Assembly: GCF_030160295.1 (NCBI RefSeq)
Contig: NZ_BSOB01000025.1
Span: forward strand, 158,305-222,304
Reading direction: 5' to 3'
Length of the DNA stretch: 64,000 nt
DNA from: Dyella acidisoli
GTDB lineage: Bacteria > Pseudomonadota > Gammaproteobacteria > Xanthomonadales > Rhodanobacteraceae
Below are positions 1-23,013 of the stretch, piece after piece. Made by a program: the position numbers and the translations under genes. The notes beneath the pieces were generated by a model. The model searched no databases. It was not told the DNA's origin and saw only the letters and a list, made by a program, of their open reading frames with translations. Positions within the stretch are counted from its first letter, which is position 1. Every line of letters begins with the position of its first letter.

Positions 1-456
1 GGAGCAAGGCGAATGCAAGGCTTCACCTTGCTCGAAATGCTCTCCGTCATCATCCTGATCGGCATCGCTGCTGCGGCGGTATCGATCTCGGTAGCACATG
101 GTTTGGCCAGTGCGCGCATCAACGCTGCAGCCAACGAACTTGCGGCCTCTTTGCGTACCACGCGCACGCAGGCAATCGTGAAAGGCCAGCAGAGCCTGTT
201 CGAATTGGATACGCGTAGTGAGCTATATCGCGGTGCGGACAAGCGTGACGTGAAATTGCCGAAAGGTCTGGAATTGTCTGTCACCAGTGCCGCCAGTGAT
301 CAATCCGGCGGCGAGATCGCACGCATCCGCTTCTTTCCCGACGGCAGTTCCACCGGCGGACGCATCACGCTGCGCAGCGGTCAGCGTGAATGGCATGTCA
401 ACGTGTCGTGGCTGACTGGTGCGATCACCATCTTCGATACGGCCAAGCACTCGTGA
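1..456 (+). CDS. gspH: Type II secretion minor pseudopilin GspH (5' end uncertain)
   Basis: GspH is a minor pseudopilin of the type II secretion pseudopilus, made as a prepilin and processed by the prepilin peptidase. The processing motif is visible: residues G^FTLLEML precede a hydrophobic helix (VIILIGIAAAAVSI), with the usual Glu at position +5. The first ATG in the window is at 13, but it would leave a leader of only three residues. The frame is open to the left edge and encodes G-A-R-R just before it, the positive charge expected in a leader, so the true start is probably outside the window. A GGAG at 1-4 keeps ATG 13 possible. The next gene starts at an overlapping GTG. The order H-I-J-K-L-M-N-D matches the Xanthomonas xps operon, so E, F and G should lie to the left. 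Confidence 0.85.
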   Translation, partial: GARRMQGFTLLEMLSVIILIGIAAAAVSISVAHGLASARINAAANELAASLRTTRTQAIVKGQQSLFELDTRSELYRGADKRDVKLPKGLELSVTSAASDQSGGEIARIRFFPDGSSTGGRITLRSGQREWHVNVSWLTGAITIFDTAKHS

Positions 457-1073
457 ACACGTCGAGGAGGAGTCTGCTGGACTTTGGATGGCCGGGCTGC
501 AAATCCTCGCTCCTCAAAGCTGAGTCCGTCCATGGACTCTCCCCGCGTGCCGCCTACGTGGTCCATATGTCCGTCGCCTCGCCGGCCCATAGAACCACTA
601 TGGGCCGGCGAAGCGCCGAACATCTGTCCTCACGTAGTCAGATTTTCGCCTCGACCACCAAAGCCCAGCAGACTCCTAGCCACGCACGCGGCTTCAGCCT
701 GCTGGAAGTGATCGCTGCAATCATGCTGCTGGCGCTCGCGTTCGGCGCGTTGATGCAAGTGGCGGGTGGTTCGATTCGGCTTTCGCAAAAAGCTTCCGAC
801 TATACGCAGGCAGCGTTGTGGGCGCGCTCGAAACTCGATTCCAGTTTCGTATTGGAGCCACTGCAGCCCGGCATGACCCAAGGCAATTTCGACAACCGTT
901 TTAGCTGGCGCATGCAGGTCACACCGTGGGCCGTGCCAGATACCGCACCGCCCGGCACACCGTATGCGTTTCGCATGTACAAGCTGGATCTGGATGTGAT
1001 CTGGGGCTCGGCGCCGTTCGAGCACACCGCGCGGTTCAGTACGTTGCGGGTTAGTGGTGGTACTGGGTCATGA
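453..1073 (+). CDS. gspI: Type II secretion minor pseudopilin GspI with an inserted leader
   Basis: Minor pseudopilin of the pseudopilus tip complex with GspJ and GspK. The mature part is normal: processing site R-G^FSLLEVIAAIML followed by a hydrophobic helix and a globular domain of about 120 residues. The N-terminal leader is not normal. A GTG at 453 overlaps the gspH stop, the expected coupled start, but about 80 residues separate it from the cleavage site. Most of that is encoded by a 210-bp (70-codon) inverted-repeat element at 468-677. Joining 467 directly to 678 gives MNTSRSHARG^FSLLE, an ordinary 9-residue leader. Translation may instead start inside the element at ATG 567 or ATG 600. 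The frame is open throughout, so the gene may still work. Confidence 0.85.
   Translation: MNTSRRSLLDFGWPGCKSSLLKAESVHGLSPRAAYVVHMSVASPAHRTTMGRRSAEHLSSRSQIFASTTKAQQTPSHARGFSLLEVIAAIMLLALAFGALMQVAGGSIRLSQKASDYTQAALWARSKLDSSFVLEPLQPGMTQGNFDNRFSWRMQVTPWAVPDTAPPGTPYAFRMYKLDLDVIWGSAPFEHTARFSTLRVSGGTGS
468..677. mobile_element. 210-bp inverted-repeat (MITE-like) element inside the gspI leader
   Basis: The ends carry a 20-bp terminal inverted repeat, left AGGAGTCTGCTGGACTTTGG at 468-487 and its complement at 658-677 with one mismatch. Inside are a hairpin with stem GAGTCC/GGACTC near 523-540 and a long hairpin around 581-615 (arms TCGCCGGCCCATAG / CTATGGGCCGGCGA). Bases near 504-550 resemble the core of the elements at 50276-50589 and 63033-63239. 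It encodes no transposase. Its length is a multiple of three and it has no stop in the gspI frame. I see no clear target-site duplication. Confidence 0.75.
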
Positions 1074-1810: not shown

Positions 1811-2682
1811 TGCGCTCGCTCCGGCGCAAGCAACGCGGTGTCGCCTTGCTGCTGGTGATGTGGGCGTGCACCTTGCTTGCCATTCTGCTTGGCGGCTACG
1901 CAATCCTGGCGCACACCGAAGGTCTGCAAGCGAATTACCAGTTCCAGCAGGCGCGTGCGCATTACGCAGCAGAAGCCGGTGTGATGCGCGCGATCTATGC
2001 GCTGCAGGCGCCCAGCATCAATGATCGCTGGGTCGCCGACGGGCGCATGTACCCCATGCAGTTCGATCAGGCCAAGGTCGGTGTATCCGCGACAGCGGAA
2101 AGCGGCAAGGTGGATCTCAACGCGGCCACGCCCGACGTGCTGACCAATCTGTTCCGCAACGCTGGCGTCGATCCCGTCCGCGCAAGTCAGATCACGCAGG
2201 CAATCGTCGACTGGCGCAGTTTTCCGGTCTCGCAACAACAGGTGTCGCAACGCAATGCTGCGTATTCGGCGGCGGGTCGTGATTACGGTCCGCGTAACGG
2301 TCCGTTCGCCAGCGTGGAGGAGTTGCAGATGGTGCTCGGCATGACGCCGGACTTGTACGCGAAAGTTGCGCCCTACGTCACGATCTGGTCGGGCCGTGCC
2401 AGTCCGGACCCGAATACCGCACCTTTGCTTGCGTTAGCCTCGGTGCCTGGCATGGATCTGCAACGCGCCGCTGCCATCATCGCCGCGCGTCCGGCGGCGG
2501 CAGGTGCCACGGCTGCTTCGGGGCTGGTCGCCAATAACGGCATCACGCATAGTATCCGTTCGGAAGCCGTGCTTGCCGACGGCACGCGCGCAATCTTGCG
2601 CGCCACGGTACGCTTGCAAGGATATCGGCCCGGCGCGCAGGCTTTTGCGGTGTTGCGCTGGCAAGAGGGAGATGGGGAGTGA
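1807..2682 (+). CDS. gspK: Type II secretion minor pseudopilin GspK
   Basis: GspK caps the pseudopilus. The start is an ATG at 1807 overlapping the gspJ stop, giving 291 residues. The N-terminus MMRSLRRKQRG^VALLLVMWACTL is a basic prepilin leader and hydrophobic helix. The +5 residue is not Glu, which is characteristic of GspK and no other pseudopilin. From about residue 100 the sequence GKVDLNAATPDVLTNLF begins the helix-hairpin-helix-like region of the family, and a second such segment (PNTAPLLALASVPGM) follows near residue 205. The GTG start of gspL overlaps its stop codon. Confidence 0.9.
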   Translation: MMRSLRRKQRGVALLLVMWACTLLAILLGGYAILAHTEGLQANYQFQQARAHYAAEAGVMRAIYALQAPSINDRWVADGRMYPMQFDQAKVGVSATAESGKVDLNAATPDVLTNLFRNAGVDPVRASQITQAIVDWRSFPVSQQQVSQRNAAYSAAGRDYGPRNGPFASVEELQMVLGMTPDLYAKVAPYVTIWSGRASPDPNTAPLLALASVPGMDLQRAAAIIAARPAAAGATAASGLVANNGITHSIRSEAVLADGTRAILRATVRLQGYRPGAQAFAVLRWQEGDGE

Positions 2683-3842
2683 ATTCCGCTACGCAGACAC
2701 TGCGACCGCAGCTTGAGCGCGCACGCCGCGCATGGCGTGGTTCGCCCTTGCCAGCTTTCTTCACCTGGTGGTGGGGCGAGCTGCGTACGCTGCTGCCTGC
2801 GCGCTGGCAGGCTTTCTTCGGCGGCGGCAATGTGTGGTGCCTGCTGCATCATCAGGACAGCCAATGGTCGGTGCGGCGCAGTGGACAGCCGCAAACCTCG
2901 ACTCCCTGGAGCGATGCGCTCGATGCGCCCGAGCAGCAAGCCCTGTTGAATGCGGCCGTGGCGGACGTGGATCGCCAGGACTTGCGGCTCGCGTTGTGCC
3001 TGCCACACGAGGCTGTGCTGCGCCGCCGCCTGCTGCTGCCGGAAGCGGCACGCGACAATCTGCGCCAGATCGGCACCTTCGAGATGGATCGGCAGACACC
3101 GTTCCGCACTGACCAGGTGTACTACGACCTGCGCGAATTGCCGGGACCTGCGCCAGCCGGTCGCATAGCCGCCGAACTGGTGGTGGCCCCGCGCGCCGCG
3201 GTGGATGCCAAGCTCGAACATCTGCGCAATGCCGGTATCGCCATCGACGCCGTGGATCTGTGCGACGGCGATGCAAGGCTCGGCGTGAACCTGTTGCCGC
3301 CGGATATGGCGCGCGCGCATCGCGATCCGCGGCGCCGGCTCAATCTCGCGCTCGCTGTTGCTGCCGTACTGTTGCTGGTGCTGTGCCTCGGGCAATACCT
3401 GCACAATCGCCAGGAAGCGCTGGCTGCCATGCAGACGCAGGTCGATGACATGCGTGCCGATGCGCAGAAGATCGCGCAATTGCGCAAGCAACTGGACGAT
3501 AGCACCGGCGCGGCTGGCTTCCTGGCCAAGCGCAAAACCGATTCCGTTGCCATCGTCGATGTGCTGCAGGACCTTACCGCACGCATCCCGGATGACACCT
3601 GGCTGGAGCGCTTCACCGTCGAAAGCAGCGGTGGTCGCGTAGGCATACAAGGCCAGAGCGCGAAAGCTGCTTCGCTGATCGATGTCCTGCAGGGCAGCAA
3701 GCTGCTTACCGGTGCCAATTTCCAAGGTGTGATCCAGCGCGATCCGGCCACCAACAAGGAACGCTTCTACATGGATGCGCAGTTGCGCACGCCCACGGCC
3801 AGCAAGCCTGCCGCGAGCAGCACTGCAGGAGCGGCCAAATGA
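2679..3842 (+). CDS. gspL: Type II secretion inner-membrane platform protein GspL
   Basis: GspL recruits the ATPase GspE to the inner membrane and pairs with GspM. The 387-residue protein has a cytoplasmic N-terminal part of about 215 residues, one membrane helix near residues 217-237 (LALAVAAVLLLVLCLG), then a periplasmic PilN-like part that begins as a coiled coil (EALAAMQTQVDDMRADAQKI). The start is GTG 2679, overlapping the gspK stop; the next gene overlaps its own stop by four bases. Assignment rests on this architecture and on position between gspK and gspM, because GspL sequences diverge strongly. Confidence 0.85.
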   Translation: MNSATQTLRPQLERARRAWRGSPLPAFFTWWWGELRTLLPARWQAFFGGGNVWCLLHHQDSQWSVRRSGQPQTSTPWSDALDAPEQQALLNAAVADVDRQDLRLALCLPHEAVLRRRLLLPEAARDNLRQIGTFEMDRQTPFRTDQVYYDLRELPGPAPAGRIAAELVVAPRAAVDAKLEHLRNAGIAIDAVDLCDGDARLGVNLLPPDMARAHRDPRRRLNLALAVAAVLLLVLCLGQYLHNRQEALAAMQTQVDDMRADAQKIAQLRKQLDDSTGAAGFLAKRKTDSVAIVDVLQDLTARIPDDTWLERFTVESSGGRVGIQGQSAKAASLIDVLQGSKLLTGANFQGVIQRDPATNKERFYMDAQLRTPTASKPAASSTAGAAK

Positions 3843-21128: not shown

Positions 21129-23013
21129 GGGGCTTGCCTGGTGCTGAATGGGGTCGCTGGTTTTCTTTGGCGAGTTCGTAATCATGTCGTGCAGCTCGCA
21201 CGGATTCGCGCTCAGACACCTCGGGTACCGCCACTTCCCACCAGCAGCCGCCGGCTTCGGTAGTACGGCGATGATCGGTGTCTATCGCTATGAGATACGT
21301 GCGTTTGGACGCGCGCGCACGCGCAAGCGCCTGTTCGAGTTCGGCAATGCTGTGCACGTGTTCGGCTTCCGCGCCCATGGCGCGGGCATGTGCGGCGAAA
21401 TCGATGGAAGGAACACCATCGGGGCCATGCAGACAATCGTCGAGCATGTTGTTGAACGGCGCACCTCCGCATGCCTGCTGCAGGCGGTTGATGCAGCCAA
21501 AGCCACGGTTATCCTGCACGATCACGATGAGCTTTTGACCCAGCATGACGGAAGTGGCAATTTCCGAGTTGAGCATCAGATAGCTGCCATCGCCCAGCAT
21601 CACGATTACTTCGCGATCGGGTTTAGCCATCTTCACGCCCAGGCCACCGGCAATCTCATAGCCCATGCAGGAATAGCCGTACTCCATGTGGTAGCCGCCG
21701 GGCGTTTCGGTGCGCCACAGCTTTTCCAACTCCGCAGGAAGTGTGCCTGCGGCGCACACCACAATGTCGTCGCGCATGGACTCGGCGTGCGAGCGCTGCA
21801 CGGCGCCGATGATTTCGCCATCGTACGGTAACGTGCCTGTGGGTAGTTCCCGTTGCGAGGTGATGTCGTCGACGATGCCGCGCCACTCCTTCGCAAGCCG
21901 CTCGGCGCGCACGCGCCATACCTGGTCGGCATGCCATGTGCCGAGTTCGCGGGATAGCGCATCGAGGCCAAGCCGGGCATCAGCCAGCACTTGGACGTCG
22001 CCACCTTTCAGCGCGTCGTAACCGTTGACGTTGAGCGTGATGATACGTGCGTGGTGGTAGAGCGCGTTGGAGCCCGTGGTGAAATCCTGCAGGCGTGTGC
22101 CCACGGCCAGCACCACGTCGGCATCAGCCAGAAGGCCATTGGCTGCAGTCGAACCGCACACACCTGCGGGACCCAGTTGCAAAGGATGATTCCAGGCCAG
22201 AGTACCCTTACCGGCCTGCGTTTCGGCTACTGGTACGCCATGGGTTTCGGCGAAGCTGCGCAACGCATCGCTCGCCTTTGCGTACAGCGCGCCGCCGCCG
22301 ACCACCAGCACCGGATGCTTCGCATGGCGCAACGCTTCGGTTGCTGCGGCGACGTCTTCCTGCACAGGCGGCAAACGACGGAAGGTATGCACGCGCTCGG
22401 CGAAGAAGCTTTCCGGCCAGTCGTAGGCTTCGGTCTGCACGTCTTGCGGCAGCGCGAGCGTAACAGGCCCGCACAACGCAGCGTCGGTAAGCATGTGCAT
22501 AGCGCGAGGCAGGGCAGTGAGCAACTGTTCCGGCTTCACGATGCGATCGAAATAACGTGATACCGGACGGAAGCAATCGTTGACGCTGACGGTTCCGTCG
22601 CCAAAATCTTCGATTTGCTGCAGAACCGGATCGGGTGCGCGCGACACGAAGATGTCGCCTGGCAACAGCAGCACAGGCAAACGGTTGACGTGTGCCAGTG
22701 CAGCTGAGGTGAGCAGGTTGGTGGCGCCGGGGCCGATCGACGTGGTCACCGCCATCATGCGCCGGCGCATGTGCGCTTTCGCATAAGCAATGGCGGCATT
22801 CGCCATCGCTTGCTCGTTGTGCGCACGATACGTGGGCAATTGCTGGCGATGCTGATAAAGCGCTTCGCCCAGCCCGGCGACATTGCCGTGGCCGAAGATA
22901 GCGAATACGCCGCCGAACATCGGCAGCAGTTCGCCGCTGTCCTCATCGCGCACTTTTTGTGCAGTGAGGTAGCGTACCAACGCCTGCGACATGGTGAGCC
23001 GCACGGTACTCAT
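21118..23013 (-). CDS. iolD: 3D-(3,5/4)-trihydroxycyclohexane-1,2-dione hydrolase (ThDP-dependent)
   Basis: Opens the inositol ring to 5-deoxy-glucuronate. ATG 23013, overlapping the iolC stop at ATGA, gives 631 residues (MSTVRLTMSQALVRYLTAQK). It has the three-domain acetolactate-synthase fold: N-terminal Pyr domain with GHGNVAGLGEAL near residue 40, central domain, and C-terminal ThDP site GDGSYLMLNSEIATSV near 465 with QDNRGFGCINRLQ. The C-terminus WWEVAVPEVSERESV is characteristic of IolD. Confidence 0.95.
   Translation of the reverse strand: MSTVRLTMSQALVRYLTAQKVRDEDSGELLPMFGGVFAIFGHGNVAGLGEALYQHRQQLPTYRAHNEQAMANAAIAYAKAHMRRRMMAVTTSIGPGATNLLTSAALAHVNRLPVLLLPGDIFVSRAPDPVLQQIEDFGDGTVSVNDCFRPVSRYFDRIVKPEQLLTALPRAMHMLTDAALCGPVTLALPQDVQTEAYDWPESFFAERVHTFRRLPPVQEDVAAATEALRHAKHPVLVVGGGALYAKASDALRSFAETHGVPVAETQAGKGTLAWNHPLQLGPAGVCGSTAANGLLADADVVLAVGTRLQDFTTGSNALYHHARIITLNVNGYDALKGGDVQVLADARLGLDALSRELGTWHADQVWRVRAERLAKEWRGIVDDITSQRELPTGTLPYDGEIIGAVQRSHAESMRDDIVVCAAGTLPAELEKLWRTETPGGYHMEYGYSCMGYEIAGGLGVKMAKPDREVIVMLGDGSYLMLNSEIATSVMLGQKLIVIVQDNRGFGCINRLQQACGGAPFNNMLDDCLHGPDGVPSIDFAAHARAMGAEAEHVHSIAELEQALARARASKRTYLIAIDTDHRRTTEAGGCWWEVAVPEVSERESVRAARHDYELAKENQRPHSAPGKPHGN

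Follow-up and report, generated by a model that had tools for sequence, protein, structure and literature searches.

Here, we report a 210-bp in-frame insertion in the leader of a type II secretion system (T2SS) pseudopilin gene, gspI, of a Dyella genome (Rhodanobacteraceae), found in a window of 64,000 nucleotides (the whole stretch of DNA that was analysed). The insert is composite, a repeat within a repeat within a leader, with a MITE-like hairpin element enclosing a second, nested repeat. The same kind of insertion recurs in relatives and suggests that mobile repeats can land safely in leaders that are later cleaved off. We consider it very likely that a MITE-like element inserted here, that it is translated from a GTG coupled to the gspH stop and discarded with the leader, and that in-frame inserts of this kind are tolerated.

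A composite insertion in the gspI leader

The 5' edge of the window lies inside gspH of a T2SS operon of the Xps kind, the 5' end of that gene being upstream of the window. The part of gspH/xpsH present (1–456, forward strand, as are all features below) matches Pfam GspH over the cut-off (E 1.2e-11) and NCBIfam XpsH below the curated cut-off (E 4.8e-35). Read directly from the sequence, the GTG start of gspI (453–455) overlaps the gspH stop TGA (454–456) as GTGA. From there gspI/xpsI runs to 1073, with 79 codons ahead of the Gly codon of the prepilin peptidase site. The first in-frame stop after 453 comes at 1071–1073, and the first-pass annotation was right in counting 70 inserted codons without a stop. 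The 206-aa GspI precursor carries a type III prepilin signal (G^F-x3-E plus a hydrophobic stretch), with Pfam N_methyl matching residues 77–100 of the long precursor at 22.7 bits (cut-off 21.2) and the Gly^Phe site at 690–695; the NCBIfam XpsI match begins only at residue 79 (E 8.8e-26; 90.5 bits, below the curated cut-off of 150). The gene order gspH-I-J-K-L-M-(N)-D fits an Xps-type T2SS by NCBIfam profiles, of which XpsH, XpsI, J and GspK match below their curated cut-offs and GspM and GspD above; the product of 2679–3842 is weakly PilM-like (NCBIfam), and gspL and gspN are named from their position in the operon. The affected gene encodes the T2SS minor pseudopilin GspI/XpsI, and the insert lies upstream of the prepilin peptidase site.

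The inverted repeat that the first-pass annotation placed in this leader is real. Its terminal arms as first given (468–487 on the left and 658–677 on the right, recognised by their complementarity) are 95% complementary across 20 nt, and the RNA of 453–692 folds at -120.7 kcal/mol with a z of -8.7, beating all 200 dinucleotide shuffles. A 19-nt arm sequence has no window match beyond the two arms at up to 3 mismatches (mean of 100 shuffles, 0.00), and, with the same 3 mismatches allowed, an 18-nt version is matched nowhere else in the genome. The bounds of the element needed revision: the net insertion is indeed 210 bp, and the element proper occupies 470–675 (206 bp), with a central palindrome at 564–626 whose 29-nt arms are complementary. 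It is flanked by a putative right target-site copy, CTAG, at 676–679; the position of the left copy, 466–469, reads GGAG here and CTAG in most of the 21 sibling copies compared. A nested 45-bp REP-like hairpin unit, its ends uncertain by 1–2 nt, lies at 505–549 and is absent from the 21 aligned siblings.

The site without the insert is the common state in the genus. A search of 41 genomes turned up GspI in every one. In 15/15 other Dyella the leader consists of an NTGA start and nine codons (27 nt) followed directly by the Gly codon, with no element. Thus the start overlapping the gspH stop, proposed from the window, has a position common to all 15 relatives (GTGA in the 5 nearest, ATGA in the other 10), and the empty-site comparison, set beforehand, came out as an insertion would have it; neither a long leader lacking the repeats nor a sequence common to all relatives, the two outcomes named in advance as speaking against insertion, was seen in these 15 Dyella. 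The window gspI amounts to the flanking codons of its relatives plus 210 bp. Joining the flanks restores a normal leader as had been claimed, 27 nt ahead of the Gly codon as in relatives; at the CTAG join that leader reads VNTSTSHARG (with Gly), not MNTSRSHARG as first joined.

The element has siblings elsewhere. A search of 16 Dyella genomes matched part 45–92 of the query (the core) in 15/16, and the remainder without the core at two sites of one genome (G014), at 83% and 80% identity and both intergenic by their open reading frames. The coreless copy from G014 in turn matched in 58/233 family genomes and 10/26 genera, many matches being full-length at up to 93% identity and others partial; at most 3 candidates were scored per genome, so that copies per genome are lower bounds. 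Aligned with the window copy, 21 of these copies are 160 bp exactly in 19 cases, 159 bp in one and 161 bp in one, with ends of the GAGCCTGTC...GACAGGCTC type bearing substitutions. Of the 21, 13 have CTAG at their left end, 12 at their right end and 9 at both, a possible target-site duplication reminiscent of the IS5 group. The element therefore shows two marks of a MITE, terminal inverted repeats (the 20-nt arms, and similar GAGCCTGTC-type arms in the 21 siblings) and dispersed multiple copies (the 58 genomes, some counted through fragments). No match to the 210 bp was found in plasmid and phage collections. Rfam gave four matches on 380–1180, all far below their gathering scores and all on the palindrome, which we take as chance. 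In the source genome the element is represented only by the window copy and, on another contig, by a short fragment with two ends; on contig 53 of G000, at about 21757–21822, both ends of the 160-bp element are joined, apparently in an internal deletion derivative.

Two explanations that dispense with a genuine insertion can be weighed at this point. Ordinary divergence of a long ancestral leader might be suggested by the fact that leader length differs across the family, yet the leader is 27 nt in 15/15 Dyella relatives, and siblings of the element are scattered over unrelated sites; empty sites and siblings together contradict it, and we give it practically no weight. An assembly error that placed the repeat in gspI is very improbable. 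The genome is a draft of 64 contigs and the locus has some undetermined bases, but the closest other copy found in the 16 Dyella genomes searched is only 83% identical, so that the insert is no misplaced copy of those seen; moreover, the gspI frame is intact, and a single-contig genome (L204, 3,488,520 bases) has an insert of like kind, with long gspI and gspJ leaders.

How did an insertion come to add exactly 70 codons? The arithmetic is 160 bp of element, 45 bp of nested unit, 1 extra nt and a 4-bp duplication, making 210 bp. A bare sibling would add 164 bp (160 plus the 4-bp duplication), and one with the 45-bp unit 209 bp, both out of frame. The extra nt of the window copy is absent at that alignment position from all 21 siblings, and the frame must hence have been reached by an indel or by imprecise insertion. 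The extra nt may have preceded the insertion or followed shortly after it, being retained since it made the frame whole; alternatively, the insertion may itself have been imprecise, the left CTAG not being intact.

The nested 45-bp unit resembles REPs in its dispersal and in its covarying hairpin arms. It consists of a hairpin with jointly varying arms (GGGTACATCCATGTACCC, GAGTCCGTCCATGGACTC and others) in a conserved surround, and it occurs in 15/16 Dyella genomes, with 45 matches in one and 7 in the source genome. By eye, the unit also appears to lie within an arm of a GTCATTCCCGCGAAAGCGGGAATCC palindrome at two loci of the source genome (L007 and L008, around 1501–1550), which makes a second kind of nested repeat, and further copies lie inside longer inverted repeats with other outer arms, of the CCTGTCTGTCCGCA type (L003–L005).

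The next gene in the window, gspJ (1070–1810; ATGA start overlapping the gspI stop; NCBIfam T2SS protein J, E 5.8e-36, below the cut-off), has a lengthened leader of its own, with 86 nt between the gspI stop and its Gly codon. A second palindromic repeat lies in frame in that leader at 1109–1130. This palindrome, CCCCTCTCCC-TTC-GGGAGAGGGG, is matched 163 times across its own genome when up to 3 mismatches are allowed (85 forward and 78 reverse, the strands being pooled so that one palindrome may count on both), against 0 and 0 for a control pattern. Viewed over 1070–1160, it is a high-copy CCCCTCTCCCTTCGGGAGAGGGG palindrome in frame within the lengthened leader.

Leader length and reading frame across the family

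We expressed leader length as D, the number of nucleotides separating the stop codon of the upstream gene from the Gly codon of the prepilin site. GspI was matched in 223 family genomes; one locus each was taken from 140 of them, and 133 loci were parsed by motif. This first parse gave 123 gspI and 130 gspJ rows; it left out 8 gspI rows in which the upstream hit was not gspH (D 533–634), 2 loci lacking a gspI row, 3 lacking a gspJ row and 7 unparsed loci. Recovery of the missed rows with tblastn brought the numbers measured to 140/140 for gspI and 137 for gspJ.

D equalled 2 modulo 3 in 123/123 gspI and 130/130 gspJ rows of the first parse, and in 139/140 and 137/137 after recovery. The sole exception, the gspI of L222, has a short leader (D = 19) that starts without an overlap. 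All long leaders (D of at least 45) fell at 2 modulo 3 after recovery, 42/42 in gspI and 28/28 in gspJ, where one third in each class is expected without frame selection. As D spans two independently read frames, this value is not forced by the method. The window gspI, with D = 233, is the longest measured. An ATGA or GTGA was found at the gspI start in 122/123 rows of the first parse, including all 38 long ones, and 27 of the 28 long gspJ have an NTGA overlap, the remaining one having GTAA. No stop codon occurs inside the 66 long leaders of the first parse (38 gspI and 28 gspJ). The frame from the coupled upstream start is thus preserved, and the inserts are very probably translated.

The argument rests on the distance modulo 3, since an open frame is by itself a weak indication: the 21 gspJ leaders with D of at least 60 are open in 21, 15 and 12 cases in frames 0, 1 and 2. 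In gspH, where 57/85 of the leaders with D of at least 60 fall at 2 modulo 3, the start often lacks an overlap, and that gene is therefore not used as proof; the gspH row of the source genome, which has undetermined bases, enters the gspH counts, tree changes included. Related genomes are not independent, and a tree of 119 genomes (FastTree on mature GspG-H-I-J, with 31 weak forks; first parse only) was used to count changes. The long state (D of at least 60) changes at least 22 times in gspI and at least 9 times in gspJ, losses included, which makes many of the events independent. Order-level loci (L030–L038) mostly have short leaders by eye. Two second gspI-like genes, on contig 1 of G017 and contig 44 of G106, have an in-frame TGA and are perhaps decaying paralogues.

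These counts bear on whether the element is translated at all. The first-pass annotation had left two readings side by side, an element translated within the leader and a GspI that starts inside it, at ATG 567 or 600. In the second reading the upstream part would be untranslated or make a dead peptide. Both ATGs are in frame, with leaders of 42 and 31 residues, Gly included, and a REP survey makes the case that many REPs near the 5' ends of open reading frames may go untranslated, translation possibly starting downstream (PMC3733652). With an internal start, the frame from the coupled start would be free, and yet it is kept in all 70 long gspI and gspJ leaders; the start at the gspH stop is common to all 15 Dyella relatives, and inspection by eye shows no evident ribosome-binding site ahead of 567 or 600. 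Translation through the element is thus the favoured reading, and we consider an internal start unlikely, though conceivable for this one gene.

What the inserts are and where they occur

Leaders in neighbouring genes and genomes often hold in-frame repeats. The single case that had looked striking is real and at the same time one of many, and its element proves to be two nested repeats. Among the 53 gspI and gspJ leaders with D of at least 60 (first parse, as for all fold and codon results), 37 fold with a z below -3 (40 mononucleotide shuffles each) and 30 contain a heptad-periodic run that exceeds those of all 200 shuffles. One or the other is found in 39 and neither in 14, so not every lengthening is a palindromic repeat. 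The commonest kind of insert seen is a heptad palindrome, for instance GGGATTC repeats followed by GAATCCC repeats, read as GIRDSGF...ESRIPNP. A leader of this kind is matched 87, 99 and 56 times in three g37 genomes (judged Rhodanobacter), counts in which a palindrome may match both strands, and none in a fourth genome, of another genus. By eye, GIRDSGF- or SPFPVP-type repeats also lie in the gspG leaders of seven loci (L048, L049, L051, L052, L063, L066 and L068), so that the major pseudopilin is affected as well. The gspJ leader of L196 has a tandem MKPAVMK-like repeat and no strong hairpin, another route to the same outcome.

Among the gene junctions measured, such insertions are restricted to leaders. 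In a same-operon comparison of 29 named loci (L041–L070 less L050, many of their genomes shared with the survey), a stretch of at least 45 nt was added in gspI at 9/29 and in gspJ at 4/29; no such stretch was added in gspK, gspL or gspM (0/29 each, one gspM alignment start being misplaced) or in gspN (0/28). Like gspI and gspJ, these four genes overlap the gene before them or lie directly against it. gspK, which encodes a leader as well, shows small differences only. Of 137 N_methyl matches found across 8 genomes, 30 loci were read for other pilins, a T2SS locus among them, and no heptad repeat was seen by eye inside their leaders. Being cleaved off is therefore not enough by itself. The pattern is one of gspG–J of this operon, and we do not extend it to all prepilins.

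The inserts might instead be selected for, with hairpins of translated leaders setting the passage of ribosomes from gspH to gspI and so tuning the amounts of minor pseudopilins. The strong folds, in the window and in the 37 leaders above, are what this would predict, and gains or losses recur on the tree. Against it, palindromic mobile repeats fold well anywhere, most genomes have no gspI insert (D of at least 60 in 31/119), and unrelated repeats are used, as neutral insertion predicts. Substitutions also look unconstrained by codon position, a comparison that is blind to base pairing. In the closest pairs (L209/L214 gspH and gspI, and L210/L217 gspH; mature identity at least 0.96), leader substitutions number 14, 12 and 13 by codon position against 3, 2 and 23 in the mature part (Fisher p 1.4e-4); these three comparisons were picked once the full table was known, and one has indels. 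Over all pairs, which reuse genomes, the counts for leader versus mature part are 91, 99 and 100 versus 243, 206 and 483 in gspH, 335, 287 and 302 versus 1411, 1288 and 1846 in gspI, and 14, 15 and 15 versus 63, 51 and 63 in gspJ. The even spread in the closest pairs supports a leader that is free in sequence and constrained in frame. Selection for tuning is accordingly improbable to us, and we regard the inserts as probably neutral.

Net charge is positive in all 53 leaders, in keeping with their staying in the cytoplasm. GC-rich sequence favours Arg regardless.

Probably discarded leaders and known in-frame repeats

What might have happened at this locus? A 160-bp MITE-like hairpin would have inserted at a CTAG-like site in codons 5–6 of the GspI leader, the net gain being 210 bp (70 codons) and the 45-bp REP-like unit having been either carried by the hairpin at insertion or received later. 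Translation would start at the gspH-coupled GTG, pass through the element and give a prepilin with an 80-residue leader counting Gly. A prepilin peptidase of the GspO/PilD type would then cut Gly^Phe on the cytoplasmic side, removing the added residues and leaving mature GspI as it was. In this scheme the prepilin leader would be a dispensable stretch amid overlapping genes. Selection would remove insertions that are out of frame or bear stops, and those in frame would persist, palindromic repeats of several unrelated families thereby gathering in pseudopilin leaders.

In-frame inserts in the leader would be tolerated because prepilin peptidase removes it. This enzyme acts on the cytoplasmic side and cuts the leader at its final Gly or Ala; leaders differ in length from one system to another (PMC10191384). 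A point against the discarded leader is that long leaders might be cut poorly. A bolder version, in which T2SS pseudopilin leaders are a general in-frame landing zone whose translated hairpins have been co-opted to set minor pseudopilin dose through ribosome coupling, seems unlikely to us.

Our findings suggest a simple rule, that mobile repeats enter tight operons at peptide stretches which the cell cuts off, and they offer a clean example of mobile DNA being absorbed by genes with the mature product unchanged. The dozens of natural in-frame leader insertions are also test material for how much N-terminal excess prepilin targeting and prepilin peptidase accept. For annotation, they imply that the starts of pseudopilins with long N-termini are probably genuine.

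In-frame MITEs and REPs in proteins are already known; recurrent colonisation of prepilin leaders by repeats was not found in the literature searched (titles and abstract openings, with few subscription papers). Palindromic repeats lying in frame in proteins have been described in Rickettsia and reportedly occur in Wolbachia too.

The REPs of the GTAG and CGTC superfamilies are small palindromes that sometimes lie within genes, often near the N-terminus, and in the part of the account available they are not tied to cleaved leaders (PMC3733652). Type IVb and S. sanguinis pilins belong to working systems with leaders well above the usual length, leaders that the portion consulted does not describe as mobile repeats, unlike the gspI and gspJ inserts (PMC10191384). 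Bacterial MITEs (ERIC/RU, Correia, QMITE) are alike in being non-autonomous inverted repeats of 100–200 bp that sometimes make in-frame fusions, and in YPO1552 an RU-2 contributes to a predicted Sec signal peptide; that is one predicted Sec signal, whereas here prepilin leaders are concerned, with 70 long gspI and gspJ leaders keeping their frame (PMC2759123). By description, the Rickettsia palindromic elements (RPEs) are alike in their in-frame insertion, being short hairpin repeats in frame in conserved protein genes, as the gspI and gspJ inserts are, and probably tolerated, not useful (PMC10969869, PMC2229807). RPEs are found in many unrelated genes, and the insert reportedly stays in guanylate kinase, the one tested product, whereas the gspI and gspJ inserts gather in leaders that are cut off.
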